The notes under the pieces were generated by a model that was not told the origin of the DNA, did no database searches, and saw only the letters and a list, made by a program, of their open reading frames with translations. Of a DNA stretch of 64,000 bases, positions 47,344 through 64,000 are shown in pieces (position 1 is the first letter of the stretch; each line of letters opens with the position of its first letter). The position numbers and the translations under genes are program-made. The stretch covers positions 62,001 to 126,000 of the forward strand of contig CAKNJS010000001.1 of the NCBI GenBank assembly GCA_930986645.1. Direction: 5' to 3'. Origin of the DNA: an uncultured Lachnoclostridium sp. (GTDB lineage Bacteria; Bacillota; Clostridia; Lachnospirales; Lachnospiraceae).

Positions 47344-48798
47344 TCAGATATTTATATTTGCCTCGTTCAGAAGCGCAGTCTTTGTATCGTAGAGCTTCTG
47401 TGAAAGGTCTACATATACTTTGTGCGGGTTGAAAAGACGTTTTGTCTCTTCCCACAGCGTATCTTTTTCCTGTCTGCAGAAATCCGCGATTTCTTTTACA
47501 GACGGACTGTCATATTTGCACTCGCCGCGGATAAATACAGGCTTTAGAATTTCTTTCATTGTATAAGTTCCGCCTTCCAGACGGGTCTTCTTCCATGTTG
47601 CATTGGGATCGAAAAGTACCAGATCCTTAGAGGTATCATATTCTTCTCCTGCAAAACAGATAAGATCAGCGCGGATCTTACCGGTCTCTTTGTCATAAAT
47701 CCTGTAGATTGTCTTATTACCCGGATTTGTGATTTTTTCCACGTTCTCTGATATCTTGATCTTCGGAACAAATTCTCCCTTTTCATTCTGGATTGCGGCA
47801 AGTTTATATACTCCGCCGAATGACGGACAGTCTTTGGATGTGATCAGATTCGTTCCAACGCCCCATGAAGTGATGGCGGCGCCCTGAAGTTTCAGGTCGT
47901 TGATCAGGAATTCATCCAGATCGTTAGAAGCGGCGATGACCGCATCGGTAAATCCTGCATCGTCCAGCATTTTTCTCGCCTTTTTGGACAGATAAGCAAG
48001 GTCGCCCGAGTCCAGACGGATGCCATAGCTCTTCGGATGAATTCCGGCATCGCGCATCTCTTTAAAGACGCGGATCGCATTGGGGACGCCGGACTTTAAG
48101 GTATCATATGTGTCTACAAGCAGCGTACATGCATTGGGATAGAGACGTGCATACTCTTTAAACGCGGTATATTCGTCTTTAAAGCTCATGATCCAGCTGT
48201 GAGCATGGGTCCCGAGGACAGGCACGTCGAACATTTCGCCGGCAAGTACGTTGGAAGTGCCCACACAGCCGCCGATCATTGCTGCTCTTGCGCCGTAAAG
48301 CCCTGCATCCGGTCCCTGTGCGCGGCGCAGACCGAATTCCATGACGCCGTTTCCCTGTGCCGCATGAACGACACGGGACGCCTTCGTGGCGATCAGGCAC
48401 TGGTGATTGATGATCGTCAGAATTGCGGTTTCCACAAGCTGCGCCTCCATGATCGGCGCTACAACTTTGATCAGCGGTTCTCTCGGGAAGATCACGCTTC
48501 CTTCGGGGATCGCATATATATCACCGCTGAAGTGGAATCCACTTAAATAATGAAGAAAATCTTCGCTGAAGATGCCGAGTCCTCTTAAGTAATCAACATC
48601 CTCGTAAGAGAAGTTCAGATTCTTGATATAGTCAATGACCTGTTCCAGTCCGGCCATAATTGAATATCCGCCTTTGTTCGGATTCTCCCGGAAGAACATA
48701 TCAAAGATAACAGTTTCGTTTTCCTGTGTCTCAAAATAGCCCTGCATCATTGTCAGCTCATAGAGGTCTGTGAGCAGGGTGAGATTCTGTGCGCTCAT
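47344..48798 (-). CDS. pncB: Nicotinate phosphoribosyltransferase
   Basis: A 484-residue enzyme that makes nicotinate mononucleotide in NAD salvage. The N-terminus LTDLYELTMMQGYFET and the phosphoribosyl segments GLRRAQGPDAG, GTHAHSWIMSF (catalytic His) and YGIRLDSGDLAYLS are typical. Start chosen at the ATG preceded by AGAGGGAATTT. A minus-strand -10 (TATAAT, 48900-48905) lies about 100 bases upstream, within the leader after the TIR gene, so it probably has its own promoter. Placement ahead of ddl and murF is unusual but seems to be one operon. Confidence 0.93.
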   Translation of the reverse strand: MSAQNLTLLTDLYELTMMQGYFETQENETVIFDMFFRENPNKGGYSIMAGLEQVIDYIKNLNFSYEDVDYLRGLGIFSEDFLHYLSGFHFSGDIYAIPEGSVIFPREPLIKVVAPIMEAQLVETAILTIINHQCLIATKASRVVHAAQGNGVMEFGLRRAQGPDAGLYGARAAMIGGCVGTSNVLAGEMFDVPVLGTHAHSWIMSFKDEYTAFKEYARLYPNACTLLVDTYDTLKSGVPNAIRVFKEMRDAGIHPKSYGIRLDSGDLAYLSKKARKMLDDAGFTDAVIAASNDLDEFLINDLKLQGAAITSWGVGTNLITSKDCPSFGGVYKLAAIQNEKGEFVPKIKISENVEKITNPGNKTIYRIYDKETGKIRADLICFAGEEYDTSKDLVLFDPNATWKKTRLEGGTYTMKEILKPVFIRGECKYDSPSVKEIADFCRQEKDTLWEETKRLFNPHKVYVDLSQKLYDTKTALLNEANINI

Positions 48799-48917
48799 AA
48801 TAAATTCCCTCTTTTCATTGTACACGGGCGCCGATATACAGCGCCTGTCCGGTGTTGCGGCAGAAAGCCCGCCGAGGAATCTGCCGATTTTTCTCTACGA
48901 TTATAGCACAACCGTGT

Positions 48918-51900
48918 TTAATCTTCTACAAAATATCTCTGTTTTTCAAGATCAGTAAGTTCACGCCCGTCCAGTACTTCATCCGCAAGGGAAAGCATCT
49001 CGTCGAGAGATCTCCGGGGAAACTTATATAGTCCGTCTTCTGTAACTTCAAGCACATAGTCACTGCCGATGCCGGCGAAGTAGGGCAGTATGGACGTGTA
49101 CTCGTATATTCCGTCTCCCATATTCTGCAAGATGAAGCCGTTAGGATAGGAGGCAGTGTATTCGGCAGTTACGTACAGTTCGTTTCCGTCCTCATTAAAT
49201 CTCCAGTCTGTAATATCAAGCTCCAGCTCCTCTGAGTTCATTGTGTAATCATGAGTCTTCGTGTCATAGACGGAGAGCATGCGCGTACGTGAGTGGAGGA
49301 ACAGATACCGGTTGTCCGGCGAGAGCCAGAATGCCCGGTAGCTGTCTCCCTCCAGCGGTACAGTGCAGATTTCGGTTCCGCCCGGAAGGTCTATGATATG
49401 AACCTGCCGGTCCGTACCGTAGACAAGAGCTTTTGTCCCATCATCGGAAAAGACGCAGTTCGGATAAAGTGTGTCCGCAGCCACAGTGAGTCCGGACGGT
49501 CCGTCAATGGCGGTTTTATTTCCGATATCATAAAAACAGATCACGGATGCAGAGGAAGCATCCTCTTCGTAACTTTCGTTCAGCCACACAGCTGCGTACC
49601 TGCCGGTGGGATCCGTGCAGTATGAGTATTCATATGAGGTAATTGTGTCGCCCTCATATGCCGGTTCCCATCCGGTCAGCGCCTGTATTTCTTCCGGTGT
49701 CAGGACAGAAGTGAGTTCAAGGGATTCACCGGAGAGACGGGCTATGCCGCCAGCCATCTGAAAGAAAATGCAAGGCTCAACGCTTTGTTCCGCAGCCTGA
49801 AATTCGCAGAACTTATCTGCGGTGTTTTCAGAGGGATTTTTACAGATGCCCATGATTTCCCGGTCTTTCAGGGAATAGAGGCAGACTTCGTCTTCTGTGG
49901 CGAGATAGCAGCAGTCGTCTCCGAAGAATCCGGAAATGCCGTCATATACGCCGGAGACCTGATACGACCAGATGCATTCTGCGGAATCGCTGTCCCATAT
50001 TTTAAAATACTGATACTCTGCGCCGTTAGCGTCTGTTTTTCCTGTCCCGCATAGACCGGCGATGTATTTTCCGGACGGGGAGATGGCGGGCGGTGTGGAT
50101 GTTTTTATATTTTCGGAATCCGGAATGAATTCCTGCCCGGGGTCGGAGACAATGGCATATACATAGACCGCTTCGCCGTCATTGGGAAAGAGAAGCAGTT
50201 TCCCTGAATCCGTCCATTCTGCCACTCCCAGATTATTAATTCCGAGATCGGAATGTCCATATGTCTCATTTAGGAGAGTGGCGGAATTGAGGAATGCCTC
50301 GTGCAGGATGCCGTCCTGCGTGATGTGGTATGCGCCCCGGGGACCGTCATTTACCCCGGCTACTCTGCGGGCATAAGGAAATTCTCCGAGAATTTCCCCG
50401 TCCCGTATGTGCAGCACCTCAGTGTCGGCCGCGACCCATATGGATGCCTCATCCTCTTCCGTATCGGAAAAAGTTCCGATTCTGTACAGCCCGTCCCGCG
50501 AAATGGAAGCATTGTCAATTTTCCAGTTGAGGCTGCCGTCAGTGCAGTCCAGCTCGGCTACAGAATAAGGCAATGTGTCATACATAATATTCAGCGATAC
50601 GTTGAATTCGACATTGTACAGGAAGGTCAGCGTATCTTGACCGGAAAACATCATGGCATAGCATGAACCGCCGGTCCACTGGTAAATTGCTTTGGACGAG
50701 CCGGAGGCAGGGGTGAGAAGGTACAGGGCGTTCTCTCTGTCTCCGTAAAGCGGACCATTGTAAGCAGAGATACACAGGGAGCTGCTGTCTTGCGTCCATT
50801 CAGCTCTGTTTGCCATCCATGAAGAACTGTCGTCGGAATCTTCCAGAGGAATGGATATTTCCGATACGGGGTTTCCTGTCTTGGCGTCAAGAAAGACAGC
50901 TGTCAGCTCAGAAGAGTAAGCGGAGTTCTCTTCATAATTTGTGTGAACTGAGACGAATGAGATCATGGACTTGTCAGGCGATATACTGCACACCTCCCCG
51001 TAACCGGAATCCGGCGACCATTTCCACAGAATCTCTTTATTAACATAGTCGCAGCATACAACCGAATAGGCGTCGGAAAGACAGGCAGTGCCGTTTCCGC
51101 TGAGAAAGAGATATTTTATGTCGTCCATTCCTTCCGGAAGAGGAAGGGGATCATAGACGGTATTGTTTTTTAAATCCCAGTAATATGTAGTGCCCTGCCT
51201 GTCGCAGCAGGCAAGCAGATCATTTTCTTTGTCCACTGCGTATACGGATGTAAAACTGTCATTCAACTCCAGTTTTTGGACAGGGTAGTAGTAATTTACA
51301 TTATCGGCATAATACAGATAAAGGGCATTTTCGAGCGCCATCTGCGCCTCGCCTACAAGGGGCTTATCTCTGCTGTCCGATGATTCAGGGAGTGCCGCTT
51401 TGGCAGTGAGAAGTGCGGCCTCGCGGTTGCCGGAATCGAGAAGATCATGGGACTCCTGAGCCAGATAACGGGACTGGTTGATCTGTTTCTGCTCATAATT
51501 TTCCCTGATCTGCACACTCTGCCGGAAGCTGTAGATCCCGAAAATGAGAAAGAAAGCGGCAGCAGCAGAAGCGGCGGCGGCAAGTCTCCGCATCTGATAG
51601 GTTTTATGGCGCTGCCGCAGTTCGTCATAGGAGCAGTGAAGTGCAGGAGCGATCAGGCGAAGCATCTCCTGCCGGCATTTCCTGATGATATGCCGTGTAC
51701 TGTCCGCGCGGAAATCCGCCGCCAGAGGTTCCGTCTCCAGCAGAATGTCAGGAAACGAATCAGCGGGTTCCCCTTCGATGAGAACAGGGAGGATGTATTC
51801 CCGTCCTCTGAGCTCTATAAATGTCTGGATCTCCTGCATGACCCAACGGGACTCCCTTGTGCGCGGTGAGCAGACAACGATCAGAAATTCGGAAGTGCGC

Positions 51901-52118
51901 AGCTGCTCCCTGATCTCTCCTGCAAGGTCAAAAGAGGCTGAGAGCTCTTCGTTATCACGAAAGACACGGTTGATTTTCTGTTTTCCGGATTTTATCCGGA
52001 TCTCTTTCGGAATTTTATAATGCTCCAGTGCCCGCTGAAGGTATTGTGCTATTTGCGTATCAGGGTCGCCATGGCGATAGCTGATAAAAAAATCATATTT
52101 GAATGTATTTTCTGTCAT
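48918..52118 (-). CDS. Membrane-anchored TIR-domain protein with C-terminal beta-propeller-like region
   Basis: A 1066-residue protein. Residues 7-140 form a TIR domain (FKYDFFISYRHGDPDTQIA at the N-terminus) with a glutamate in SRWVMQEIQTF (E96) at the position of the catalytic residue of NAD-cleaving TIRs. A single TM helix spans about 178-197, followed by a short coiled coil and the RYLAQESHDLL...REAALLTAKAALP segment seen before WD40 arrays. The last 700 residues are beta-rich, with repeated SPSGKYIAG- or SPDNRYLF-like blade motifs. The 81-residue extension of the longest frame lacks a ribosome site; I start at 52118 (AAAGGAAAT upstream). Its neighbour is the divergent KAP-methyltransferase. 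It may turn ligand binding by the propeller into NADase signalling; this is inferred. Confidence 0.85.
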   Translation of the reverse strand: MTENTFKYDFFISYRHGDPDTQIAQYLQRALEHYKIPKEIRIKSGKQKINRVFRDNEELSASFDLAGEIREQLRTSEFLIVVCSPRTRESRWVMQEIQTFIELRGREYILPVLIEGEPADSFPDILLETEPLAADFRADSTRHIIRKCRQEMLRLIAPALHCSYDELRQRHKTYQMRRLAAAASAAAAFFLIFGIYSFRQSVQIRENYEQKQINQSRYLAQESHDLLDSGNREAALLTAKAALPESSDSRDKPLVGEAQMALENALYLYYADNVNYYYPVQKLELNDSFTSVYAVDKENDLLACCDRQGTTYYWDLKNNTVYDPLPLPEGMDDIKYLFLSGNGTACLSDAYSVVCCDYVNKEILWKWSPDSGYGEVCSISPDKSMISFVSVHTNYEENSAYSSELTAVFLDAKTGNPVSEISIPLEDSDDSSSWMANRAEWTQDSSSLCISAYNGPLYGDRENALYLLTPASGSSKAIYQWTGGSCYAMMFSGQDTLTFLYNVEFNVSLNIMYDTLPYSVAELDCTDGSLNWKIDNASISRDGLYRIGTFSDTEEDEASIWVAADTEVLHIRDGEILGEFPYARRVAGVNDGPRGAYHITQDGILHEAFLNSATLLNETYGHSDLGINNLGVAEWTDSGKLLLFPNDGEAVYVYAIVSDPGQEFIPDSENIKTSTPPAISPSGKYIAGLCGTGKTDANGAEYQYFKIWDSDSAECIWSYQVSGVYDGISGFFGDDCCYLATEDEVCLYSLKDREIMGICKNPSENTADKFCEFQAAEQSVEPCIFFQMAGGIARLSGESLELTSVLTPEEIQALTGWEPAYEGDTITSYEYSYCTDPTGRYAAVWLNESYEEDASSASVICFYDIGNKTAIDGPSGLTVAADTLYPNCVFSDDGTKALVYGTDRQVHIIDLPGGTEICTVPLEGDSYRAFWLSPDNRYLFLHSRTRMLSVYDTKTHDYTMNSEELELDITDWRFNEDGNELYVTAEYTASYPNGFILQNMGDGIYEYTSILPYFAGIGSDYVLEVTEDGLYKFPRRSLDEMLSLADEVLDGRELTDLEKQRYFVED

Positions 52119-52155
52119 ATCTGTCTGATTTCCTTTATAATAGAATCTGTCCAAT

Positions 52156-52184
52156 ATTATATCATGCGGCTGAAGATGTGTGAA
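52156..52184 (-). promoter_or_regulatory. Promoter of the TIR gene
   Basis: On the minus strand TTCACA (52179-52184), a 17-base spacer and TATAAT (52156-52161). It lies in the 100-base divergent interval, so it may share control with the KAP gene, for which I see only a weak -10 (52136-52141). Confidence 0.55.
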
Positions 52185-52218
52185 TGGTGTCGCGAAAAAA
52201 ACAGGGGGAAGTACAGAT

Positions 52219-54393
52219 ATGGAACAAAGAGATATACCGGTGGAGAGGCCGGAACAGGATGAATTTGGAGTGGGAAGATATGTGCAGGGACTGTGTAAAT
52301 TTATCAGAAGCAGCGAAACCCCGATTACAATAGCTCTGCACGGAGAGTGGGGAAGCGGCAAGACTTCTTTTATGAAAATGATGGAGTGCTGCCTGTGTTC
52401 TCCCGAACTGCCGGAAGAAGAACGGTATGACGCAATCTGGCTGAATACGTGGGATCTGTTTCTGGAAAATGAATACGGGACGGCGGTTAAGAAGCTGCTG
52501 AACAGTCTTTTCTCACAGCTGGAGGAACATTTTGAAAAGCTTCATGCCAGACAGAAAAGTGATGAACGTAAGCGCCAGATCAAAGAATATCTGAAAGGCA
52601 TCTCCAGCGTGATGCTCACGGCAATTAATATCGAACTGGAGACGTCCGGCAAAGTGCTGGATCAGGTGTTCGGGGGACATGATTATGCCTCTATCCGCAC
52701 ATTAAAACGGGATTTTGAGAATTTCCTGAAAGATGAAGTGGAACAGAAGGGAAACGGTGTTACAGATAAGGCGTTTCTAATTTTTGTTGACGATCTGGAC
52801 CGACTGGAGCCGCGGCTTGCGGTTACTCTGCTGGAAGCTTTGAAGAATCTGTTTGATATTGAGAAATGTGTTTTTATTCTTGCAATAGACTATGAAGTCG
52901 TCACATTCGGAATCGAACAGAAATACGGCAGTAAACATATAGCAAACCGAAATATCGGTCAGGATTTCTTTGATAAACTGATTCAGGTTCCGTACCGGAT
53001 TCCCGTGGCAAAATATGATATCCGAGCCATGGTTATGGACAGGCTGAAAAAGATCGAGTATTTTGACCGTGCCTATGATTATGAAAAATATGAGGGCAGG
53101 ATCATAGAGATCTTTCAGCTGGCAACCAATAAAAATCCGCGGGCCGTCAAAAGGCTTCTCAATATGCTTCATCTGATGACAGCGATGAATCTGGGTGAGG
53201 AGAACAGCCATGCGGAACTGCGCATGATGGAGCTGCTGCTGATGGCTTTGCAGCTGTCTTTCCCTGCCGTCTATCTGATGCTGGGTAAAAACAATCATCT
53301 GGAAACATGGAAGAAAAGTTTTGCCATGGAGGAGGGAAAAATCGAGATAACTGAGAGTGTCCGGCAGAGATACCAGCTGGATGAAGAATGGAAGGAAATT
53401 ATATATCTTACGGTTTCCAAGGATGAGGTGATCCGGCGTAACTTCCACCGTGTATCCCGCCTTCTGGAGATTTACGGCCAGCTTCAGGACTGCTGCCACA
53501 AAGTTGGAGAACGTGTTGAGGATGCGCTGGGAATCATCAATGTAATATGCCGGGTGCAGAATGAAAATGAGCAGATCGTATACGATGGGGAGGCGTATGA
53601 TAAATCCTCGCAGACACAGTACCGTCAGGGAACAAAGCTGGTAAATTCTATTGATTTCAGCAGTTTCTCAAAAGTTCTGGATGTCGGGTGCGGCAATGGC
53701 AGCACGACACTGGATATGTGGAATAAAAACAGGGATATGCATGTCAGGGCGTTTGATCTGGCTGTCAGCCAGATTGAAAAGGCAAATGAAAAATATCAGA
53801 AGCTTGTGGAGAGCCTGCCGCCGGACAGCTGTGAGGGGGAAATTGATTTCGATGTCATGGATGCTCTCGATCTGCATGATAAAGAGATGTATGATCTTGT
53901 ATTTTCCAATGCTACACTGCACTGGATCACGGATGAAAAGCGGATGTACGGTCTTTTGTATGAGGCACTGGAACCCGGCGGGAAGCTGGCGGTGCATCAG
54001 GGAGGCGCAGGTACATATGCGGGACTCCATCAGGCGGTGCGTAAGGCGATCAGAAATCTCGGATTTGAGGACAGGTACAAAAAATGGCTGTTCCCTGCTT
54101 TTTATCCGAAGAAAAGAGAAATGGAACTTCTGCTGGAATCAGTCGGCTTTACGGATATTCATGTGGAAAGTGTTTATTCAGATGAGAAAGACAATATGGA
54201 TCTGGTCGATAATTTTGCAAACGCCAGCCTGATTTACTATCACATTCCATCCGTGACGGATGAAGAATTTGAGCAAATACGAAAGGAATATTTTCGTATA
54301 TGTGAGACGGAAACAATAGATAAATCTTCACACAGACTGTATATTTTTGCAGAAAAACCCAAAAAGGAAAGGAGTCATGAAGATGAAGATTGA
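52219..54393 (+). CDS. KAP family P-loop NTPase fused to a SAM-dependent methyltransferase
   Basis: A 724-residue fusion. Residues 20-330 are a KAP-type NTPase: Walker A GEWGSGKTS (42-50), Walker B FLIFVDDLDRLEP (186-198) and the downstream NKNPRAVKRLLN sensor. It lacks the TM insertion found in many KAP proteins. Residues about 455-724 are a class I methyltransferase: motif I VLDVGCGNG (486-494), then MYDLVFSNATLHWI, similar to trans-aconitate-type enzymes. A linker of about 120 residues joins them. The start is the ATG preceded by GGGGGAAG; a GTG at 52180 is less likely. It is divergent from the TIR gene and overlaps the GNAT gene. KAP NTPases occur in phage-defence and membrane-linked systems; the fusion is rare in my experience. 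Confidence 0.85.
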   Translation: MEQRDIPVERPEQDEFGVGRYVQGLCKFIRSSETPITIALHGEWGSGKTSFMKMMECCLCSPELPEEERYDAIWLNTWDLFLENEYGTAVKKLLNSLFSQLEEHFEKLHARQKSDERKRQIKEYLKGISSVMLTAINIELETSGKVLDQVFGGHDYASIRTLKRDFENFLKDEVEQKGNGVTDKAFLIFVDDLDRLEPRLAVTLLEALKNLFDIEKCVFILAIDYEVVTFGIEQKYGSKHIANRNIGQDFFDKLIQVPYRIPVAKYDIRAMVMDRLKKIEYFDRAYDYEKYEGRIIEIFQLATNKNPRAVKRLLNMLHLMTAMNLGEENSHAELRMMELLLMALQLSFPAVYLMLGKNNHLETWKKSFAMEEGKIEITESVRQRYQLDEEWKEIIYLTVSKDEVIRRNFHRVSRLLEIYGQLQDCCHKVGERVEDALGIINVICRVQNENEQIVYDGEAYDKSSQTQYRQGTKLVNSIDFSSFSKVLDVGCGNGSTTLDMWNKNRDMHVRAFDLAVSQIEKANEKYQKLVESLPPDSCEGEIDFDVMDALDLHDKEMYDLVFSNATLHWITDEKRMYGLLYEALEPGGKLAVHQGGAGTYAGLHQAVRKAIRNLGFEDRYKKWLFPAFYPKKREMELLLESVGFTDIHVESVYSDEKDNMDLVDNFANASLIYYHIPSVTDEEFEQIRKEYFRICETETIDKSSHRLYIFAEKPKKERSHEDED

Positions 54394-54931
54394 ATACAGA
54401 GGCATTGTAACGGACGAAAAAGAAAAGAAACAGATATGGGACATACTCTGCGAGTGTGACAGAGAGTTTTATCCGCCGCTGTCAGCGAGAAACAGTTCCG
54501 TGCAGAAAGATCTCAGGACAGAGGAGTCTTCGGACAGGGATCAGATAGTAAAGCCCACTGTATATTTTGATGAAATGATACAGCAGTATTTTATTCTGGC
54601 CTTTGATGATGCCGGAAAAATGACCGGATATATGACGTTTAAGAAAGACTATATTTGTGATGCCCTGCAGAATTTCGGAAAATCGCTTTATATCACGACG
54701 ATCTGCGTGAAAAAGGATTGCCGCAGGCAGCATGTGATGAACAGTCTGTATGAATGTATGGAGACGGAGGCGGCAAAGATCTGCAGCTGTCCCCGGATAT
54801 CCACAAGGACATGGTCGGAAAATGAGGCGCATATGCGGGGCCTGGAGCAGAGGGGATATGATCTCTTATGCAGGCTGGAGAATGACAGAGGCCCCGGAAT
54901 TGACACAGTATATTACGGAAGAAAAATCTGA
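54383..54931 (+). CDS. GNAT-like N-acetyltransferase
   Basis: A 182-residue protein with a GNAT-like pattern: FILAFDDAGKMTGYMTFKKD then YITTICVKKDCRRQHVMNSL, where CRRQHVM stands for the acetyl-CoA loop R/Q-x-x-G-x-G/A (its glycines are not conserved). The C-terminal TWSENEAHMRGLEQRGYDLL fits the last GNAT strand. It starts at the ATG eight bases after AAAGGAG, inside the end of the KAP frame; the ATG at 54377 is too close to that site. Acetyl-CoA binding may be altered by the changed loop. Confidence 0.65.
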   Translation: MKIEYRGIVTDEKEKKQIWDILCECDREFYPPLSARNSSVQKDLRTEESSDRDQIVKPTVYFDEMIQQYFILAFDDAGKMTGYMTFKKDYICDALQNFGKSLYITTICVKKDCRRQHVMNSLYECMETEAAKICSCPRISTRTWSENEAHMRGLEQRGYDLLCRLENDRGPGIDTVYYGRKI

Positions 54932-54976
54932 AAAAATTTTTTTAGTCAGATCTGATATGCTTCAGATATAATTAAC

Positions 54977-55005
54977 TTGTTATTTATTATGCAGGGAATT
55001 ATAAT
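54977..55005 (+). promoter_or_regulatory. Promoter of the vWA / tubulin-like operon
   Basis: TTGTTA (54977-54982), a 17-base spacer and TATAAT (55000-55005). The transcript starts near 55012 with a leader of about 65 bases. The region just upstream is strongly AT-rich. Confidence 0.65.
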
Positions 55006-55077
55006 AAATATATATTTTGTCGAAAAACGGCGGTTTTGCGGCGGAATAATTTTAGTTATTTAAAGGCGGGGGCGAAA

Positions 55078-57261
55078 ATGAAAAAGATAATTTCCAGACT
55101 CTTGCTTCTGGCCGTGCTTTTTACCTCAATACTGACTCCGGGAATGGGAACAAAAGCAGCGGAGGTGAAAGACAGCGGAGCAAGGGCAATCTATGTTGTA
55201 TTCGATAATTCCGGAAGTATGTACGGACCGGGAAATATGGCGTGGTCACAGGCAACTTATGCAATGGAAGTATTCGCTGCAATGATGAATTATGACAGCG
55301 GCGATCAGATGAAGATATTTCCGATGCATAATGTGACAACGGGAGGATCGGGTGCAACTTCTTCTATCACGGTAAAATCAATTTCTGATATAGCCCAGAT
55401 TCATAATATGTACACCCCCCAGCCTCTGGGGACTCCCTATACACAGGTGAATACAGCGGCAAATGAACTTGCGTCGCTTCTGGACAGCGGCGGAGCCTCT
55501 GAGGGCTGGCTTGTCGTCCTGACAGACGGAGATTTTGACAGTGATCTTCCGTCTGCGGGTCTTCAGGCAGATCTGGAGCAGAAAGCTCAGATGAGGGACA
55601 ATATGTATGTCCAGTATCTTGCCATGGGAAGCGATATCAAGACTGTTGCAGACGCTGATGAAGAGATCGGACTTTATTCACAGAAGGTGGAGAGCAGCTC
55701 TCAGGTGATTAATGAACTTGCGGTGATCAGCAACCGCATTTTCGAGAGAAATGAATATACGGGATTAAAAGAAAACGGAAGTCTTTCTTTTGATATTCCT
55801 TTAAGCCGCCTGATCGTTTTTGCACAGGGCAGCGATGTGAGCATCAACAGCCTGAAAAACAAAGAGGGCAGCGAGATCAATATGGAGAGTAATTATGAAG
55901 TCTCCTGCAGCAGTACGGATGGCGGCGGCCTGACCGATTTCGTGACTGAGACGCCCGCAAAGGATACTTCGCTGAAAGGGCAGGTAGCTGTATTTTCTGA
56001 TTCTTCTGCCATCATGGAAGGGGAGTATACTCTGGATATAAAGGACGCCGATTCCGTGAAGGTCTATTATGAGCCTGATGTAAAATTCGGTGCAGGACTT
56101 TACCGCGGGGACGAGCAGGTCGATACCGATACAATTGAGGGCGGAACTTATGACGTAAGAGTCGGATTCGTGAATCAGCTTACGGGGGAATTCATTGAGA
56201 ATACAACACTTCTCGGAGAACCACAGTACTCCCTTACAGTAAACGGTGAGGAATACGGACTGGGCGGAAGCACCGGCGCTTATCAGTCGGTGGAGATTCA
56301 GGCGGACGGCGAACAGCTGGAAATAGCGGCAGATGTGACCTACCTGAATAATTATACAGATCATGTGGATATGTCGTTTCAGGTATGCACGCTGGAAATG
56401 ACGGTTGATGCGCCTGATACGGTTCCGCTTAAGGAGATTCCGGACGGAGCCGGATCCATGACTGTAGCAGCCATGAAAAACGGTGAGCCGCTGACAGAAG
56501 ATCAGTGGAAGAATGCGTCCGTTGAGGTGGAAGCCAAAGACAGCGAAGGTGCAGACTTCGCCATTGAATGGGACGTACAGCCCGGGAGCGAAGTGTCAAC
56601 ATGGGTGATCACCCCTCGGTATAAAGACGGGGATATGTTCTCGACAGGGACAGGACAGGCGGATGTTACAGTAAGTGTATCGACCGAGATAGACGGGCAG
56701 CAGTACGGCAAGTCGGAAAATGTACCGATGGATATCAAAGACGACAGGAATCCGATCGATTATCTGAAAAAATACTGGAAACAGATTACCATATGTCTGA
56801 TCCTTCTTATTCTTATCCTTGGTTATGTACCTCCGTTTAAGAAGCGGTTCCCCGGGAAGATGAAGAAAAGGCCGAGCATTGAATGTACGGCGGAAAAGAT
56901 CGGAATCCATGATATGGTCGTGAAAGGGAATTTTGAGAAGAATATAATCTCAATGCTTGTACCCTATAAAGCGGAGACCGGAAGACTGACATTTTCTCCT
57001 GCTCCGGTTAAGAAGACAGCCCGTCTTAAAGCAGCAGGCGGGGGAAGTATCTGGCTGATGAATACTCAGGCATTTCAGGGAAAAGACGACATTACATTTA
57101 ACGGAATGTCGATTCCGGAGAACTACAAAGGAAATTTCAGAATGTCGGCAAGTACGATCATCGTTGTGTCGACTCCGGAATTTACATATACATGTATTCC
57201 TAATGTGCAGCGCACGGCCGACGGGAAGATAAAGAGAAACAAAGGGAAAAAGAAAAAGTAA
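55078..57261 (+). CDS. Secreted, membrane-anchored vWA-domain protein
   Basis: A 727-residue protein. Residues 1-28 are a signal peptide (KKIISRLLLLAVLFTSILTP, cleavage near KAA). A vWA domain follows, with the MIDAS motif VVFDNSGSM and a second metal segment LVVLTDGDFDSDLPS. The middle (about 230-560) is beta-rich and immunoglobulin-like, then one TM helix spans about 567-587 and a basic cytoplasmic tail of about 130 residues ends the chain. The start has GGCGGGGGC upstream. vWA domains bind other proteins through a metal ion, here on the outer face, while the tail can contact the tubulin-like partner encoded 41 bases downstream. Confidence 0.85.
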   Translation: MKKIISRLLLLAVLFTSILTPGMGTKAAEVKDSGARAIYVVFDNSGSMYGPGNMAWSQATYAMEVFAAMMNYDSGDQMKIFPMHNVTTGGSGATSSITVKSISDIAQIHNMYTPQPLGTPYTQVNTAANELASLLDSGGASEGWLVVLTDGDFDSDLPSAGLQADLEQKAQMRDNMYVQYLAMGSDIKTVADADEEIGLYSQKVESSSQVINELAVISNRIFERNEYTGLKENGSLSFDIPLSRLIVFAQGSDVSINSLKNKEGSEINMESNYEVSCSSTDGGGLTDFVTETPAKDTSLKGQVAVFSDSSAIMEGEYTLDIKDADSVKVYYEPDVKFGAGLYRGDEQVDTDTIEGGTYDVRVGFVNQLTGEFIENTTLLGEPQYSLTVNGEEYGLGGSTGAYQSVEIQADGEQLEIAADVTYLNNYTDHVDMSFQVCTLEMTVDAPDTVPLKEIPDGAGSMTVAAMKNGEPLTEDQWKNASVEVEAKDSEGADFAIEWDVQPGSEVSTWVITPRYKDGDMFSTGTGQADVTVSVSTEIDGQQYGKSENVPMDIKDDRNPIDYLKKYWKQITICLILLILILGYVPPFKKRFPGKMKKRPSIECTAEKIGIHDMVVKGNFEKNIISMLVPYKAETGRLTFSPAPVKKTARLKAAGGGSIWLMNTQAFQGKDDITFNGMSIPENYKGNFRMSASTIIVVSTPEFTYTCIPNVQRTADGKIKRNKGKKKK

Positions 57262-57302
57262 CAGAAAAAGCAGTAAAAATACTCAGTGAGGAGGAAAGAG
57301 AA

Positions 57303-60300
57303 ATGATTGCACCAACACTATTAGTAGGACTTGGAGGAACCGGCTCCAAAATCGTATGCCGCGTATCTAAAATGGTTACGGAAGAGCAGCGCAGACACAT
57401 CGGTTTTGCCGTGTTTGATACGGATATCAATGAGTTGCGCGAGATTCAGGAGGAAAATCCGTTTATCAGGACGATTCAGACATCCACTAAGCTGACGGTC
57501 GGAGAATATCTGAACATTGACACGCATGCGAGGGACACATGGTTCCCTGTAAACGGCATTCTCAACAGTAAATCGCTGACAGAAGGAGCCGGACAGGTAA
57601 GAGCAATCTCCAGACTTGCTCTTGACACGGCAATCCGTGCCGGCAATATGGAGCCGCTGCACAATGCGATCGAGGATCTTTATAAACTGGAGGGCAATTC
57701 CGGCGAGCAGGCTTTACGTGTGGTTATTGTAAGTTCTCTTGCAGGAGGGACAGGATCCGGTCTGATCCTTCCGGTGGCGCTCTATCTGAAGAACTATCTT
57801 GCTACAAAGTTTCAGGCGAGTGCAAATATAACGAGAGGTTTCTTTATCCTTCCCGAAGTATTTTATGAAGTAATCCGCGGGCAGACGGAGAGAAATAATC
57901 TGAGATGCAATGCATATGCGGCTCTGCGCGAGCTCGATGCTTTTCTGATGAAAGGCGACAAGACGCTGCCGGATAAATATGAGAAGACCGTGAAGATTGA
58001 ATTCCCGAGAGTGGGCTCCAATGATGTGGAAGAGTATGATGTCCGCCCGTATGATTTCTGCTTCCTTTTTGATGCGCAGAATACAGAGGGGAAGAAGCTG
58101 AACAGCTTTAATCAGTATCTGGATCACGCTGCAAACTGTATTTACTCACAGTCCATCGGACCGATGAACAAGAGAAGCAACTCGTCAGAGGATAATACCA
58201 TCCGCGAACTGTGCGCGCAGAGAGGGCGCAACCGCTATGCCGGCGCGGGCTCGGCCATGCTGATCTATCCGACGGAGGATGTAAAAGAGTTTATCGCACT
58301 CAACTGGGCAAAGGAATGTGTTTCCAAACAGTGGCTTGTATTTGACGATATGTACAGAGAAAAGTGTTTGGCCAATTCCGAGATGCGGGCACAGGGATTC
58401 CATGTGCGCGATGTAAATCCGTCTATCGACTACATCGAGTCTATCAATCAGCTTGCAAAGCAGAAAGATCCGTTTGCCAAGGCTATCGAAGATGCATGTA
58501 CGATTTATGACGACGGCGGTTATAAGAAAGTAAGCGACAAGTGGACCGAGTATGCAGCCCAGCTTAAGAAATTTGTCAAAGAAAGCACCATGACCGGACA
58601 GATGGATCTGGATGCCCAGAAACAGCAGGCCTCCGGATTGATCAACGATATCGAAGTCGGCAAAAAAGAGACGGCAGAAGATCTGCAGACAGCTTTCGGC
58701 GAAGTGGAAAAATATAAGGATATGGTCATGAAACGCAGCGAGGATACCGGAAGAACTATCGCTTATACGATCTTTAAGGCGAAGAATGATTCTGCTACAA
58801 AAGACCGCCTGCCGCATCAGATGGAAACATACTTAAGAGACCAGCACGGTACATTTATTCATCCGAATGCAGTAAGATATTTCCTTTATCAGGCACTGGA
58901 ACTCCTGAAGAAGGAAAAAGTGCTGGTCGATAAAGAAAATGACAAGAAAGAGAAATTCTTTGAGGATTTCTATAACATTTTTGATGATCCGAAGACGGAC
59001 GAGACAGAGACGGTAGATCAGCTGGCGGACAGAAAGATTGACAGAAAATCGCAGCAGGAGATGAAAGACCAATTCAGATTCTATATCAGCGAGGTAGATA
59101 AATACCGTACGAGCAGCGTGCTCGCAGAGGTGTTCCGGGAGGGTATTGACTATATAACAAGTCTGTGTGATGCATTCCAGACTTTCTATGCGTCATTTGA
59201 GGACAGAATCAATAAACTTGACCGCAGGATCGTGTCACTCCGCAAGAAATACGGAAATACAGCCGGAAGAACGACAAGATATGTATGTGCTACCCCGAAC
59301 TGTCTGGATCACCTTCTGAAAGAAATGCCGTACACGGGCAATACAATTACCATCGACAAAGAGCTGGCAGAGGATATCTATACAAAGGTGCGCAGTTATT
59401 CCATGATGAAGGATAAACCGGAAAACGGCGGTTACTTTGAAGAACTCTTTGAGGACGGCATTATCGGCTATTTCAAAAAATCTCTGATGGAGATATATGG
59501 AAGCACGGTTGATATGGATGTTCTGTCTGCTCTTGAGAGAGAAGCAAAATATGAAGAAAATGAGTATGATTTCGGCAGAATTGAGCAGTATGTACGCCGG
59601 GTTATTGCGGAGACGAGGAACCTTTCCAATCCGTTTATCGAACGCCCGCTTGGCGAACAGAAAGAGCCTATTGCAGCCTGCACATACAGCAAGAAGCTGG
59701 ATCCGAAGGACGGATCCCCTAGATCCGCCCTGATCGCGAAAGAGCTTGGCAACTATGGCGGCAATCCGGATGAAGACATTCCTCTTAATATGATCATGTT
59801 CTATCAGGCAATCTACGGTCTGCGTGCGAACGGCCTGTCCAAGTTCGCTCCGGCAAATGAGGCGGACGGCAGATGTGAAGGCGAGTATTATAAGGCATAT
59901 TATGAACTGATAAGCCAGATTAAGCCGAAGTCTGACAAGACGCCGGTGATCACGCCGCACATTGACAGGAGCTGGCATATTATTTCCTGCCTGCCGGATC
60001 TGGATGATGAGAATCAGGAGCGTCAGGAGAGACAGATCTACCGTGCATTTGTACTGGGGCTTCTGTTCAATCTGATCAGTTACCGGAAGATTTCAGAAGG
60101 AAAGTATCTGTACAGACTGCAGCTTAACGGTATTGAGACCGAGGAGTTTGTCGTTTCAAACGGCACGCCGTGCGATCACTATTATGAGGTGCTGGATGCG
60201 CTTATTATCAATCCTGTCGTAGTCAGTACGATCATCAGCTATATGAACAAGAAGTTTGACATGGAGAGAAACAATTCCGGAAAGATTACTTTTGAGACGA

Positions 60301-60710
60301 GTCTGCTCCATAAACATCTCGGAAAACTTAAGAGTGAAGAATTTAAGAAAGACGGCCTGACTCTTTTTGATCTGGCACTGCTTCTCAAGGTGTCCACACC
60401 AGCAGCAGAGTTTGACAAGAAGGTGGGCAAGGATATTATGAAAGAAGCTCTTGCTTTCGTGTATGACTATATGAAGACGATTGTTCTCGGCGATGATCTG
60501 GACTGGGTATACGGAAACTTTGTATATGATCAGGCAGAAAAGTTTGATAAAAATGTGGACTGGTATTTTGAAAACTGGAGAGATAATTTCAGCGATTATG
60601 TGGATGACCTGATGCAGATCGCGTCAAACGAGATCGAGAACAAGGGATTGAATGATCTCTATGAAAAAATCCAGACAATGATAGAGGATGCAAGAACAAG
60701 ACGAGAGTGA
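57303..60710 (+). CDS. Tubulin/FtsZ-like protein (Tubulin_2 type)
   Basis: A 1135-residue protein with an N-terminal tubulin/FtsZ-like GTPase domain. The first strand and loop is LLVGLGGTGSKIVCR (GLGGTG at 9-14); the second is SSLAGGTGSGLILPVA, with GGTGSG at 148-153 standing for the FtsZ/tubulin signature GGGTGTG. The rest, about 700 residues, is helical and acidic with no recognised domain. There is no signal or TM segment. The ribosome site is GAGGAGGAAA. A vWA gene precedes it, matching the gene pair reported for a bacterial FtsZ-like family thought to remodel membranes. Whether it forms filaments is unknown. Confidence 0.85.
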   Translation: MIAPTLLVGLGGTGSKIVCRVSKMVTEEQRRHIGFAVFDTDINELREIQEENPFIRTIQTSTKLTVGEYLNIDTHARDTWFPVNGILNSKSLTEGAGQVRAISRLALDTAIRAGNMEPLHNAIEDLYKLEGNSGEQALRVVIVSSLAGGTGSGLILPVALYLKNYLATKFQASANITRGFFILPEVFYEVIRGQTERNNLRCNAYAALRELDAFLMKGDKTLPDKYEKTVKIEFPRVGSNDVEEYDVRPYDFCFLFDAQNTEGKKLNSFNQYLDHAANCIYSQSIGPMNKRSNSSEDNTIRELCAQRGRNRYAGAGSAMLIYPTEDVKEFIALNWAKECVSKQWLVFDDMYREKCLANSEMRAQGFHVRDVNPSIDYIESINQLAKQKDPFAKAIEDACTIYDDGGYKKVSDKWTEYAAQLKKFVKESTMTGQMDLDAQKQQASGLINDIEVGKKETAEDLQTAFGEVEKYKDMVMKRSEDTGRTIAYTIFKAKNDSATKDRLPHQMETYLRDQHGTFIHPNAVRYFLYQALELLKKEKVLVDKENDKKEKFFEDFYNIFDDPKTDETETVDQLADRKIDRKSQQEMKDQFRFYISEVDKYRTSSVLAEVFREGIDYITSLCDAFQTFYASFEDRINKLDRRIVSLRKKYGNTAGRTTRYVCATPNCLDHLLKEMPYTGNTITIDKELAEDIYTKVRSYSMMKDKPENGGYFEELFEDGIIGYFKKSLMEIYGSTVDMDVLSALEREAKYEENEYDFGRIEQYVRRVIAETRNLSNPFIERPLGEQKEPIAACTYSKKLDPKDGSPRSALIAKELGNYGGNPDEDIPLNMIMFYQAIYGLRANGLSKFAPANEADGRCEGEYYKAYYELISQIKPKSDKTPVITPHIDRSWHIISCLPDLDDENQERQERQIYRAFVLGLLFNLISYRKISEGKYLYRLQLNGIETEEFVVSNGTPCDHYYEVLDALIINPVVVSTIISYMNKKFDMERNNSGKITFETSLLHKHLGKLKSEEFKKDGLTLFDLALLLKVSTPAAEFDKKVGKDIMKEALAFVYDYMKTIVLGDDLDWVYGNFVYDQAEKFDKNVDWYFENWRDNFSDYVDDLMQIASNEIENKGLNDLYEKIQTMIEDARTRRE

Positions 60711-60738
60711 TCCTCAGGATATGAAGGCGGTGAAAATA

Positions 60739-62775
60739 ATGCACACAGTGATAATACTGAGCAGGCACTCGTCGGATCTGCTGAAAGATTACCGTTTTTT
60801 GTTCAGACCGTTTACGGAGAAAGGGCTGGTCAGTTTCTGTGACTGGAATGAGTCAGGGACGGATCTTACGGCATCTGTTCCCGACTTGTATAAGCTGATC
60901 AAAGGACGGCTGCAGTGGCGGGCTGTTATTGTCGATACGGAGCCGGCTTTCGGAAGAAAGAACGGACCTGTGCCGGATGAAAAGAATCCCTTTGACTATC
61001 CGGGAGAGGCACAGGATCCGTCTGAACCTCCTAAACCGAGCAGTGTGCCGATCATACGGCTCACCCATATGCTGTGCGGCTATCCGTCCTCACCGGTTAA
61101 GAACTTTGAAGACGGTTATGAATATACAGATGAGATAACCGGAAAGACAAAACGGGTAAGGGCATCGGAACTTACGGAGACAGAGTTCTATGCGCTGGCG
61201 GCAAAATATAAGGACGGGCTGCGCAGAATTTATTTGGAAGAAAAAGTGCCTGAGGAGACCGTTCTTGCGAGAAAGGCATTGGAAGATAAATATTCATTTC
61301 TTGATGTGCGTCCGCAGGAGGTTTATCTGGTCTCAACACGCAGACATCCGGATGACGAGGATTATATCTATTCTTCGTGGAAGTCACCCTTTGAGATGGA
61401 AAGCTCTGATTTCTGCCGGAGAAATAATTATCCGGGAATCTGCAGATTCCTGTGCAGTGAACTGACAAATCCGGAAAACAGCCGGTATATGAAAGAGCTG
61501 ATGGAATTCTGGCTGGCCGTACTTACACTTACGGTAAATCCGATCCCGGCGAGCACGCTTCAGGCATACAAGCTTTATCGGCTCGGAGTGAAGATCTCGG
61601 ATGAAGGGCTGTCGGATGTCCTTAATGAACATCTCAATAAAATGGAAGCAGCCTATGCTTTTGTGAAGGAACGGCTCAGGATGCGGCCGGAGTATTCCTT
61701 TGAAGAAGAGGAAGAAATTGTCGAGAAACAGCATATTCCTGTAGTTTTTGAGGGAACATCCGGAGGAGATCTTTTAATCAATACAAGCCGCGTGGGGCTC
61801 AGCAGAGGGTGCCCGGATGATGAAATGATGTACTGGAACAGCCAGATCCGGGAGAAACAGGCGGGAATCGATAAGTTTTTAAAGGCACCCAGACGCGCCG
61901 TAGACAGGGCTTCCCAGCAGGTGAAGGGACTGTCAGAAAGCTTTTTTGACGATGAGTATGAACTTGATAAATTTCAGATCGCAGATCTCAAAGACGAAAT
62001 AGATGTGCTGGAGCTTAAGGTATTGACCAGCGATACACACAGTGTAATTGACGAGAAGAGGATCCGTCAGGAATTAAATAAAACTGACCGGCAGGTGAAA
62101 AAAGACATTGATGCCAGAATGCGGAAAGGGATTGCGGTCGGATCAGGTCTGATCTTTCTCATGATCTATCTGATCGGATATTTCCCGTATATATTTAATT
62201 CTCTCAGATTGGGCGGAAGCGAGTTTCTGGCGTCGATCGGGCTCAGCGCGGCGGCAGTGATCCTTGCGGCATCGGGAGGACTGATTGCTCTTTTCCTTCT
62301 GAGAAGAAAGCTGATCAGAAGCATGGAGCGTTTTAACAGTCTGATCAAAGAACTTGTCAACAATGTAAACAGCTCGGCCAGAAAATTTGAACAGTATTTT
62401 TCCGTGCTCTGTACATTTATGAAAGCCCAGTCTGTTTATGTCAGTGCAGCGAAAAAGAGTGATAAGGTATCTTCCAGAGTGTCAAAACTGCGCGTACATA
62501 AACAAGCACTTGCCCTGTCGATTGAACGTGATGAAGAAATTGCCGCGGTATTCGGCATCCGCAGAGCGGCGGATTTCGAAAAAAATGTGACCCGTTTCTT
62601 TGATGAAGACAGACTCCCGAAGGATAATGCGCTCTATTACTATGAGGCGGACAGCGGCAGAACAGAAATCCCTCTGAATACGGCGGGCGATCTGGTGCGG
62701 GCACCATACAGATTTATTGCGGGACTTACGATCGAACGGGAAGATATTTACGAAGAGGAGAAAGGGGGAGACTGA
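60739..62775 (+). CDS. Hypothetical two-TM protein of the vWA / tubulin-like operon
   Basis: A 678-residue protein; the start is the ATG after AAGGCGGTG, which puts it 28 bases past the tubulin-like gene. The N-terminal part (HTVIILSRHSSDLLKDYRFL, then WRAVIVDTEPAFG) looks like an alpha/beta domain. The middle is charged and helical. Two TM helices lie near 463-483 and 495-517 (GLIFLMIYLIGYFPYIFNS first), followed by a cytoplasmic helical tail. I recognise no family. Coupling with the next gene is tight: the stop and the next ATG share a base (TGATG). Confidence 0.75.
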   Translation: MHTVIILSRHSSDLLKDYRFLFRPFTEKGLVSFCDWNESGTDLTASVPDLYKLIKGRLQWRAVIVDTEPAFGRKNGPVPDEKNPFDYPGEAQDPSEPPKPSSVPIIRLTHMLCGYPSSPVKNFEDGYEYTDEITGKTKRVRASELTETEFYALAAKYKDGLRRIYLEEKVPEETVLARKALEDKYSFLDVRPQEVYLVSTRRHPDDEDYIYSSWKSPFEMESSDFCRRNNYPGICRFLCSELTNPENSRYMKELMEFWLAVLTLTVNPIPASTLQAYKLYRLGVKISDEGLSDVLNEHLNKMEAAYAFVKERLRMRPEYSFEEEEEIVEKQHIPVVFEGTSGGDLLINTSRVGLSRGCPDDEMMYWNSQIREKQAGIDKFLKAPRRAVDRASQQVKGLSESFFDDEYELDKFQIADLKDEIDVLELKVLTSDTHSVIDEKRIRQELNKTDRQVKKDIDARMRKGIAVGSGLIFLMIYLIGYFPYIFNSLRLGGSEFLASIGLSAAAVILAASGGLIALFLLRRKLIRSMERFNSLIKELVNNVNSSARKFEQYFSVLCTFMKAQSVYVSAAKKSDKVSSRVSKLRVHKQALALSIERDEEIAAVFGIRRAADFEKNVTRFFDEDRLPKDNALYYYEADSGRTEIPLNTAGDLVRAPYRFIAGLTIEREDIYEEEKGGD

Positions 62776-64000
62776 TGACAGAGATCATATATATTATTAA
62801 AATCCTGCTCTGCACAGCTTCCTTCGTTCTTTTGTGTATTGCTGCAATGAAAGTAAACCTGAACCGGACAGAGCGGGCAAAGCAGTTTGTAATGCCGGGA
62901 ATCGCTCTTGTATACGGAATACTGGTCATGGTTTTTCTGAACGATATTTATGTGCAGATTACAAGACTGATTCGTTTCATGGAAAGCCTGCTCCCATTTA
63001 TCGGCGGGCTTCATCTGGAACAGTATCTGATCTATATTGTAAACGCTGTCATGGTGCTTGGATTTCTTGTCGTGAAAGCAATTGCACTTCCGATACTGGA
63101 TCGGACGTGGGGAAGGTCGGAGAACCTGATGGAGATCACATCCGGACGGTTTTATGAGTATGACAGGGAACTGGACAAGTGGTTTGTGCAGCCGAGGTTC
63201 GGGGAGGTCAGATTTTACTATAAAGGGATTTATATTGCAGCAACGGCTGTTTCAAGCATTATATTTGTGCTGTCCCAGTATTTCCCGGAGGCAGTGTTCT
63301 TCCGGACAGCATTCTATCCGGTATTCGGAGTGCTTATAATCGGAGAAGTGGTAAGCTTTCTCTCAGGCCTTACCAAACGGGAGTTTGTGGAAGACATCCT
63401 CGGTGAAGATGAAGAAGCTTACAGAATGGCGAATTACGGACTGCTCAGAGATGTGCTGAAAAGCCTGTTTGAAGATCATGTGCTGTATGACGCTACAGTG
63501 GACGGAGGGCTTGGAGTGCCCCCGACATTTGAAACGCTGGAGGAGATGTGTGAGAGCGAAGAACCCGCAGTATCCAATCTGGGCAAATATTTCCGTGCGG
63601 TAAAGGAAAGCGGAAAGGATATAGATCCGAGTTACGTAAAAAGCTGTATCCGCCTTGTGCAGGGAGAAAGTGTGCTGTTCTGTGATCCGTTTTACAGGGA
63701 TCTTACAGAATATATCCTGATCCCTATGATCGGGCATCTTATGCGTTACAGGAAATGTCTGATTATTATGGGCAGAGACTCATCAACAGATGACGTGAAA
63801 AACTGGATCGAACAGGGACTTCTTGAGGAGGTCAATACGGACAGTCTATGGAAGACGGAGATCCTTGATACAGAGATAACGGAAACCGATATCGGGATAC
63901 TCAAATTCAGCGATTTGTTTAATTTTGAAATTCAGAAGAAGAATGAAGAGTTTTTAAGAAAAGTCGGATTTGTATTTATTGTCGAGCCGTCAAAACTGCT
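62775..64000 (+). CDS. Multi-TM protein of the vWA / tubulin-like operon (3-prime partial)
   Basis: The frame opens at 62775 with AAAGGGGGAGAC just upstream and stays open to the right edge, giving 408 residues of a longer protein. TM helices lie at about 4-24, 40-58, 84-106, 150-168 and 176-197. The soluble part after residue 200 ends in a pattern like the core of a helicase: LIIMGRDSSTDDVKNWIEQG, then DIGILKFSDLFNF and FVFIVEPSKLL, where an SF2 helicase would have DEAH. The catalytic acid pair is not kept, so it may be a derived, inactive fold. The end of the gene is off the window. Confidence 0.75.
   Translation, partial: MTEIIYIIKILLCTASFVLLCIAAMKVNLNRTERAKQFVMPGIALVYGILVMVFLNDIYVQITRLIRFMESLLPFIGGLHLEQYLIYIVNAVMVLGFLVVKAIALPILDRTWGRSENLMEITSGRFYEYDRELDKWFVQPRFGEVRFYYKGIYIAATAVSSIIFVLSQYFPEAVFFRTAFYPVFGVLIIGEVVSFLSGLTKREFVEDILGEDEEAYRMANYGLLRDVLKSLFEDHVLYDATVDGGLGVPPTFETLEEMCESEEPAVSNLGKYFRAVKESGKDIDPSYVKSCIRLVQGESVLFCDPFYRDLTEYILIPMIGHLMRYRKCLIIMGRDSSTDDVKNWIEQGLLEEVNTDSLWKTEILDTEITETDIGILKFSDLFNFEIQKKNEEFLRKVGFVFIVEPSKL

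Follow-up and report, generated by a model that had tools for sequence, protein, structure and literature searches.

A tubulin–vWA operon of an uncultured Lachnoclostridium with recurrent TIR neighbours and, in relatives, a RyR-domain membrane protein

Operons joining a Tubulin_2/FtsZl1 protein to a vWA gene and membrane proteins were described by Makarova and Koonin in 2010 (PMC2875224), and no tested function for them was met in the literature examined, as far as the consulted portions of those sources extend. GTPase-centric tubulin–vWA systems with GAP1-N2 have been proposed, in the part of Kaur et al. 2020 (PMC7159879) consulted, to be conflict systems of Firmicutes and Actinobacteria. Here we describe a gene cluster with a Tubulin_2 and a vWA gene at the 3′ end of a 64,000-nucleotide stretch of DNA (the window; bases 62001–126000 of contig C1) from the 2.7-Mb, 89% complete draft genome of an uncultured Lachnoclostridium sp. 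(G000). The cluster is real, accessory and in part cargo, and its theme of TIR genes together with a tubulin gene is a recurrent association. We read it, with a probability of roughly 0.4, as an accessory envelope machine (genes D-E-F-G below, in many cases joined by H or further genes), next to which TIR genes were recruited again and again.

The sequence-only reading of the window had placed six full genes and a partial seventh here (TIR-WD40, KAP-methyltransferase, GNAT, vWA, Tubulin_2 and two membrane proteins); open frames for all of them were found in that place, and the contig beyond position 64000, which that reading had wanted, completed G and added H, I and J. Coordinates follow window numbering, with positions above 64000 read from the continuing contig, and the likely start codons at 52118 (TIR gene), 52219 (KAP gene), 54377 (GNAT) and 55078 (vWA) were chosen by hand, 3′ of the starts of the longest frames.

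48918..52118, minus strand: A, TIR domain, one hydrophobic segment and a WD40-like beta-propeller, 1066 residues
52219..54393, plus strand: B, KAP P-loop NTPase fused to an S-adenosylmethionine (SAM) methyltransferase, 724 residues
54377..54931, plus strand: C, GNAT acetyltransferase-like, 184 residues, 17-bp overlap with B
55078..57261, plus strand: D (core), vWA protein with hydrophobic N-terminus and C-terminal segment and the motif DNSGS, 727 residues
57303..60710, plus strand: E (core), Tubulin_2/FtsZl1-type, GTP loop GGTGSG, 1135 residues
60688..62775, plus strand: F (core), alpha/beta part at the N-terminus and a long helical region carrying two hydrophobic segments, 695 residues
62775..64000, continuing on the contig to 66815, plus strand: G (core), 1346 residues, the first 408 in the window
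66987-68231 (beyond the window), plus strand: H, transglutaminase-like, hydrophobic N-terminus
68292-71267 (beyond the window), plus strand: I, TIR with a C-terminal HD domain, 60 bp 3′ of H
71302-72708 (beyond the window), minus strand: J, TIR-methyltransferase, TIR score below the Pfam cut-off

A conserved core and its recurrent TIR neighbours

Among 299 genomes of the same family, surveyed at one per genus code, a Tubulin_2 match was present in 18 (16 above the cut-off) and the D-E-F-G order was counted in eight, with that of G237 being highly divergent; a full-length E orthologue was found in 3 of 25 genomes of the window's own genus. A wider scan of one genome per species, covering 84,980 species, gave 158 relatives, the best 80 of which were kept and yielded 79 loci. 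The 46 genomes behind these loci, together with G234, G237, G295 and G000, formed a close-study set of 50 genomes, in which E and G were present in 50/50, D in 49/50 and F in 48/50. The vWA–tubulin–F–G unit is a conserved, collinear core. The loci from the best 80 of the 158 relatives carried the names of Clostridia from a number of families, of Erysipelotrichaceae, of Microbacteriaceae and further Actinobacteria, and of a few Proteobacteria and Myxococcales bins; the nearest named relative among them was a chicken-gut "uncultured Ruminococcus" (99% tubulin identity), and other near relatives, again judged by the tubulin, were named Mediterraneibacter, Merdimonas and Faecalicatena.

We compared the positions of TIR_2 matches (listed to an E-value of about 1e-8) across each genome with the position of the tubulin gene, counting those within 20 kb as near. 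The 163 TIR matches of 49 genomes included 26, in 16 genomes, that lay near the tubulin gene, as against 2.0 matches in 1.9 genomes expected from random placement (20,000 draws with contig ends respected; maximum 9 genomes), which is about 8-fold over chance by genome count and 13-fold by match count. When five Mediterraneibacter-group genomes were left out, TIR was near in 11/44 genomes against 1.74 expected. A TIR gene stood inside the same gene run as the core (one strand, gaps up to 250 bp) in 8/50 genomes, and the TIR-near state changed at least 8 times on a quick tree of the 50 tubulins, which has long branches. Because of the roughly 8-fold excess by genome count, the shared runs and the repeated changes on the tree, we call the link recurrent. 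The draft genome of the window itself held three TIR_2 matches, two of which flank the D-E-F-G operon, and its in-run TIR protein is I. The catalytic Glu was conserved in 30/30 aligned TIR domains, and the other 2 of 32 did not align.

The sequence-only reading had supposed that the TIR and KAP genes sense damage or invasion and that the vWA–tubulin part acts at the envelope, and had held that, if homologous operons lacked TIR/KAP neighbours in nearly all genomes, the two halves would be independent and adjacent by chance. This reading was partly supported: TIR neighbours recur, though in a minority of core-bearing genomes; the KAP link failed, with a KAP gene within 20 kb of the core in only 2/50 genomes, G000 and its sister G339. 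Likewise, of the 50 neighbourhoods, those of G000 and G339 alone held the GNAT gene C. The seven genes are thus not one unit, and a single system comprising all of them was ruled out. KAP-methyltransferase and GNAT are local cargo, and B and C, with their overlapping frames, look like one cargo unit. Pfam matched KAP_NTPase (1.9e-39) and a methyltransferase (1e-13) in B, GNAT in C (9.5e-7) and TIR_2 in A (3.1e-12), the beta-propeller matches of A being below the cut-off; matches of B to the KAP defence systems PifA and QatA spanned only the NTPase part.

Other TIR-bearing surroundings were noted. A module of a methyltransferase, a TIR protein and a squalene-hopene-cyclase-like toroid, with a TrpF-like gene in two cases (by eye), stood beside the core in four genomes (L053:4545-7605, L131:11870-15774, L138:14079-18009 and L093:4551-7559). 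In G342 a pair of TIR genes that begins roughly 4 kb 3′ of H is followed by genes resembling, by eye, a type III CRISPR set (L134:7306-19862). In the window, a nicotinate phosphoribosyltransferase-like gene (NAD+ salvage, by eye; 47344-48825) adjoins A, and the three genes 5′ of the cluster are murF-like, D-Ala ligase-like and nicotinate phosphoribosyltransferase-like (by eye), in keeping with the mostly housekeeping character that the sequence-only reading gave to the first 48 kb. The G–H spacing is 171 bp and contains a terminator-like hairpin (by eye); luxS and hydrogenase-type genes (the latter by eye) lie past J, from about 72.7 kb on.

Of the core proteins, E matched Tubulin_2 strongly (7.3e-59; 200.2 bits against a cut-off of 27), and its GTP loop was retained in 48/50 proteins. 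The vWA domain of D scored below the Pfam cut-off (14.6 of 27 bits); its motif DNSGS, of the metal-ion-dependent adhesion site (MIDAS) type, begins at residue 43, DxSxS was retained in 42/49 D proteins, and D and E are separated by 41 bp. Relatives suggested that F starts near residue 15. No significant fold match to F was found in the PDB; its identity as a pore-forming protein was considered and is not claimed, since the best Foldseek rows were alpha-pore toxins at an E-value of only 3.6e-3 (TM-score 0.14) and a second structure comparison returned long-helix look-alikes. G has N-terminal hydrophobic segments (called, as elsewhere, by simple hydropathy), two CxxC pairs and the motif HELTH, and the predicted fold of residues 216-966 resembled an MrfA-like superfamily 2 (SF2) helicase with two RecA lobes and a DUF1998-type fold. 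On this model an EssC-type ATPase was rejected as the identity of G. The Walker A pattern G....GK[ST] was present in 0/41 G rows, GK[ST] alone occurred within positions 230-500 in 12/41, and the G sequence profile gave no helicase matches in the PDB, only polycystin rows at an E-value of 0.03 or worse. G is thus predicted to be a membrane-anchored protein with an MrfA helicase fold and no Walker A motif. Its C-terminal end gave one weak PDB row, the VgrG2b effector domain (E-value 0.7), and may have a LIM/DA1-like character. The location of the vWA and tubulin parts at the envelope, as the sequence-only reading had supposed, is consistent with the hydrophobic segments seen in D, F and G and with the consulted part of PMC2875224; the envelope role itself is one that we infer.

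A RyR-domain membrane protein beside TIR genes and the core

The neighbour likely to surprise a specialist most is a membrane protein of 581-825 residues with a ryanodine receptor (RyR) domain, which recurred in 15/50 neighbourhoods. Three hydrophobic N-terminal segments were seen in the five of 16 members checked. Searched against the PDB, the profile of this family gave only ryanodine-receptor domains up to an E-value of 0.1 (5 rows, best 6.1e-9); Pfam RyR (PF02026) matched 4/7 members at 0.05, with one member scoring below the cut-off, and TrkA_N matched 1/7. The motif EHxxW was conserved in 16/16 proteins, the copy in the window's genome included, and a second His was invariant in 7/7.

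In 10/15 neighbourhoods a TIR gene stood as an immediate same-strand neighbour of the RyR gene (counting genes of at least 100 residues; distances of -86 to 206 bp), and in 3 of the other 5 this neighbour was D, with the RyR gene directly 5′ of D at 30 to 91 bp. A-like genes adjoined the RyR gene in three relatives (G341, G345 and G375). Gene orders in three genomes illustrate the arrangement.

G340: D-E-F-G-H-RyR-TIR
G234: D-E-F-G-171-channel-like-RyR-TIR-H
G237: TIR-D-E-701-G-H-RyR-TIR

Across the 299 family genomes, an RyR-type gene was present in 5/8 genomes with the core and 6/291 others (P 1.3e-6), a value inflated by the way in which the RyR family was identified, namely from the core's own neighbourhoods. 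RyR and TIR are reportedly discussed together by Burroughs et al. 2015 among nucleotide-centric conflict systems, and priority may lie there.

Phage RyR proteins have been reported to bind or cut cyclic ADP-ribose (cADPR) through a His, Trp, His, Asp set (preprint PMC13232231, in the part consulted), and their first His and Trp share the HxxW spacing of the membrane protein described here. DUF4062 proteins have been reported, in the consulted part of PMC13174449, as TIR-like NADases (Swarozyc). G227 lacks a Tubulin_2 match, and its RyR gene comes after one with a DUF4062-like start (by eye). In G000, too, a gene with a DUF4062-like start is directly followed by a match to that end of the membrane-protein profile which carries RyR (L206:2968-6579 / G000:C1:51340-51558). 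The RyR-type gene of G000 was found at another site, some 36 kb 3′ of E, where its neighbour is a protein kinase gene and not a TIR gene; it stands with a 1354-residue Pkinase protein and a 656-residue protein (L185:7300-16200), relatives of which, judged by similar start sequences, occur beside RyR-TIR in G237.

Beyond the gene order, enrichment, predicted folds and motifs that were observed, we infer a scheme in which NAD+ is cleaved, a signal of the cADPR type arises, the RyR protein is gated and GTP drives E to assemble. E would assemble with GTP near the membrane, where D and G, the latter as a membrane-anchored pseudo-helicase with a protease-like end, would hold and regulate it, and during attack or stress the core as a whole would sense the envelope or alter it. 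The TIR proteins may be armed through their partner parts (WD40, HD or methyltransferase), split NAD+ and produce an ADP-ribose signal. Where present, the RyR/TrkA-like membrane protein might bind such an ADP-ribose-type signal and change membrane permeability, a step that leans on the phage RyR–cADPR results in the consulted part of PMC13232231; where it is absent, the loss of NAD+ could itself be the effect. The full form of this proposal, a bacterial NAD+-to-cADPR-to-RyR membrane pathway, made of a TIR enzyme and an RyR/TrkA-like protein and wired to a tubulin–vWA envelope machine, seems to us rather unlikely. If true, this would give prokaryotes a counterpart of animal cADPR–ryanodine receptor signalling, serving immunity or envelope stress. 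Through their recurrent TIR and RyR neighbours, these operons offer a specific connection, open to testing, of a bacterial tubulin with NAD+ signalling and with a membrane protein whose RyR domain is of a ligand-binding kind. Since the consulted part of PMC13232231 names as a future question whether cADPR acts on the animal receptor via its RyR domain, a bacterial model would be useful there as well.

Alternative readings of the neighbourhood

Several observations weigh against an envelope machine with recruited TIR partners. No TIR match lay within 20 kb in 33/49 core genomes (contig ends and the E-value threshold of the match list hide some TIR genes), and none did in the eight core genomes recognised as Actinobacteria, indicating that the core does not need TIR. 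The window's own operon has no adjoining RyR gene, 5 of the family's 11 genera with an RyR gene lack a Tubulin_2 match, and correlated change of RyR and TIR on the tree, which went in the same direction 4 to 5 times and in the opposite direction 0 times, did not reach significance (median p 0.125). A restriction gene was also enriched. N6_Mtase (type I restriction), with 63 matches in the 50 genomes, was within 20 kb of the core in 4 against 0.67 expected (P 0.004), which is about 6-fold by genome compared with about 8-fold for TIR, two of the four near matches being weak; in G384, judged by coordinates, it opens the gene run to which the core belongs. The gene set that it heads there is restriction-type, on the same strand, and continues into the core (L126:1-7284).

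The enrichment of a restriction gene suggests that a defence-island effect likely contributes to the TIR association. Defence genes gather to some extent around the core, and the fold enrichment of TIR exceeds that of N6_Mtase, though not by much. It is a serious possibility, somewhat short of even odds, that the core merely occupies insertion-tolerant sites at which TIR, KAP, GNAT and restriction genes gather without shared function. The confinement of KAP to two genomes and the patchiness of the core within its own genus are consistent with such accretion, as is the arrangement at its 5′ side: the nicotinate phosphoribosyltransferase gene adjoins D directly in G345, with no TIR-WD40 gene between, whereas A, B and C are inserted between them in G000 and G339. 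Against accretion as the whole explanation, the genomes with TIR near the core were four times as numerous as those with N6_Mtase there, and TIR shared the core's run in 8/50; DNA_methylase (60 matches) was not clearly enriched, being within 20 kb in 2 genomes, both times as fragments, against 0.68 expected (P 0.14); and RyR genes stood directly 5′ of D in three genomes.

The frequent lack of a near TIR gene, together with the vWA, membrane and tubulin parts and the consulted part of PMC2875224, would also fit a machine for envelope remodelling or stress in general, along the lines put forward in 2010 for FtsZl1–vWA operons, that has no immune role. The repeated TIR and RyR neighbours argue against this reading, which we consider very improbable.

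A further group of genes near the core may point to export. An FtsK/SpoIIIE-type ATPase gene was found near the core in 11/50 genomes, directly after G in 10 and after a split protease gene in 1, and one member searched against the PDB matched FtsK/SpoIIIE (3.5e-15), YukB (2.9e-9) and EccC (1.3e-8). Two kinds of small proteins of about 95 residues followed, in 7 and 6 genomes; 3′ of G in L064, L072, L093 and L104, for instance, the ATPase was followed by such proteins with DCVDN or LGPH motifs. The ATPase and small proteins may form an export system, as yet without a name, that is joined to the core. It might further be supposed that the core is itself part of type VII-like export, with the TIR, HD and transglutaminase proteins as substrates or regulators. 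This seems improbable to us: no WXG100 Pfam match was obtained in the two small proteins scanned, one small-protein profile reached EsxA only at an E-value of 0.16, ranked below unrelated rows, no EccC/EssC-type ATPase was found among the scanned proteins of the window's cluster, and its draft genome held only 22-29% FtsK-domain matches elsewhere. We retain as our preferred reading the accessory envelope machine with repeatedly recruited TIR genes.

Comparison with described systems

The sequence-only reading knew of no description of all these genes together, and we found none either: a search of the open-access literature gave no paper joining TIR or RyR to Tubulin_2–vWA operons. As far as the consulted part of PMC2875224 goes, the cluster shares with FtsZl1–vWA operons the Tubulin_2/FtsZl1 protein, the adjoining vWA gene and membrane proteins. 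It differs in G, a predicted MrfA-fold pseudo-helicase with a protease-like end, and in the frequent (not universal) kinase, GTPase-family or OmpA partner of those operons, none of which was found among the cluster proteins scanned; TIR and RyR neighbours are not among the features described for them in that part of the source. With the GAP1-N2 systems, as presented in the consulted part of PMC7159879, the cluster has in common a tubulin and a membrane vWA protein, whereas no Pfam match to GAP1-N2 or to a TRAFAC-type/double-GTPase was found among the cluster proteins. A second operon of the own genus, separate from D-E-F-G, does resemble the systems in that part of Kaur et al. 2020, having a pair of tubulin-like genes, a gene that by eye is vWA-like, DO-GTPase2 and a match to GAP1-N2 below the cut-off (L135 and L136; G317:C3 and G302:C87). 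Three genomes of the family show yet another separate pairing, in which a Tubulin_2 protein of shorter length (800-843 residues) adjoins a peptide-chain-release-factor-3-like GTPase gene (by eye; L026:8021-10540, L027:9579-12110 and L036:9469-11871).

With respect to type VII variants (PMC11217815), some core relatives add an FtsK-type ATPase and small proteins, and T7SSc also comes with a vWA protein; the word tubulin occurs nowhere in that paper. G is alike to the DUF1998 SF2 helicase MrfA in the predicted fold of its residues 216-966 and differs in its hydrophobic N-terminal segments, the lack of Walker A in 41/41 rows and the lack of helicases among its sequence-level PDB matches. Finally, the TIR-type proteins liken the locus to Thoeris and other TIR–cADPR defence and, in the consulted part of PMC13174449, to the Swarozyc DUF4062 NADases, and in relatives they stand beside a putative reader. 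A PADLOC scan of ten proteins gave ThsB-type matches for A and I (best 1.1e-5) and no ThsA; in place of the latter, the candidate reader is the RyR/TrkA-like membrane protein.

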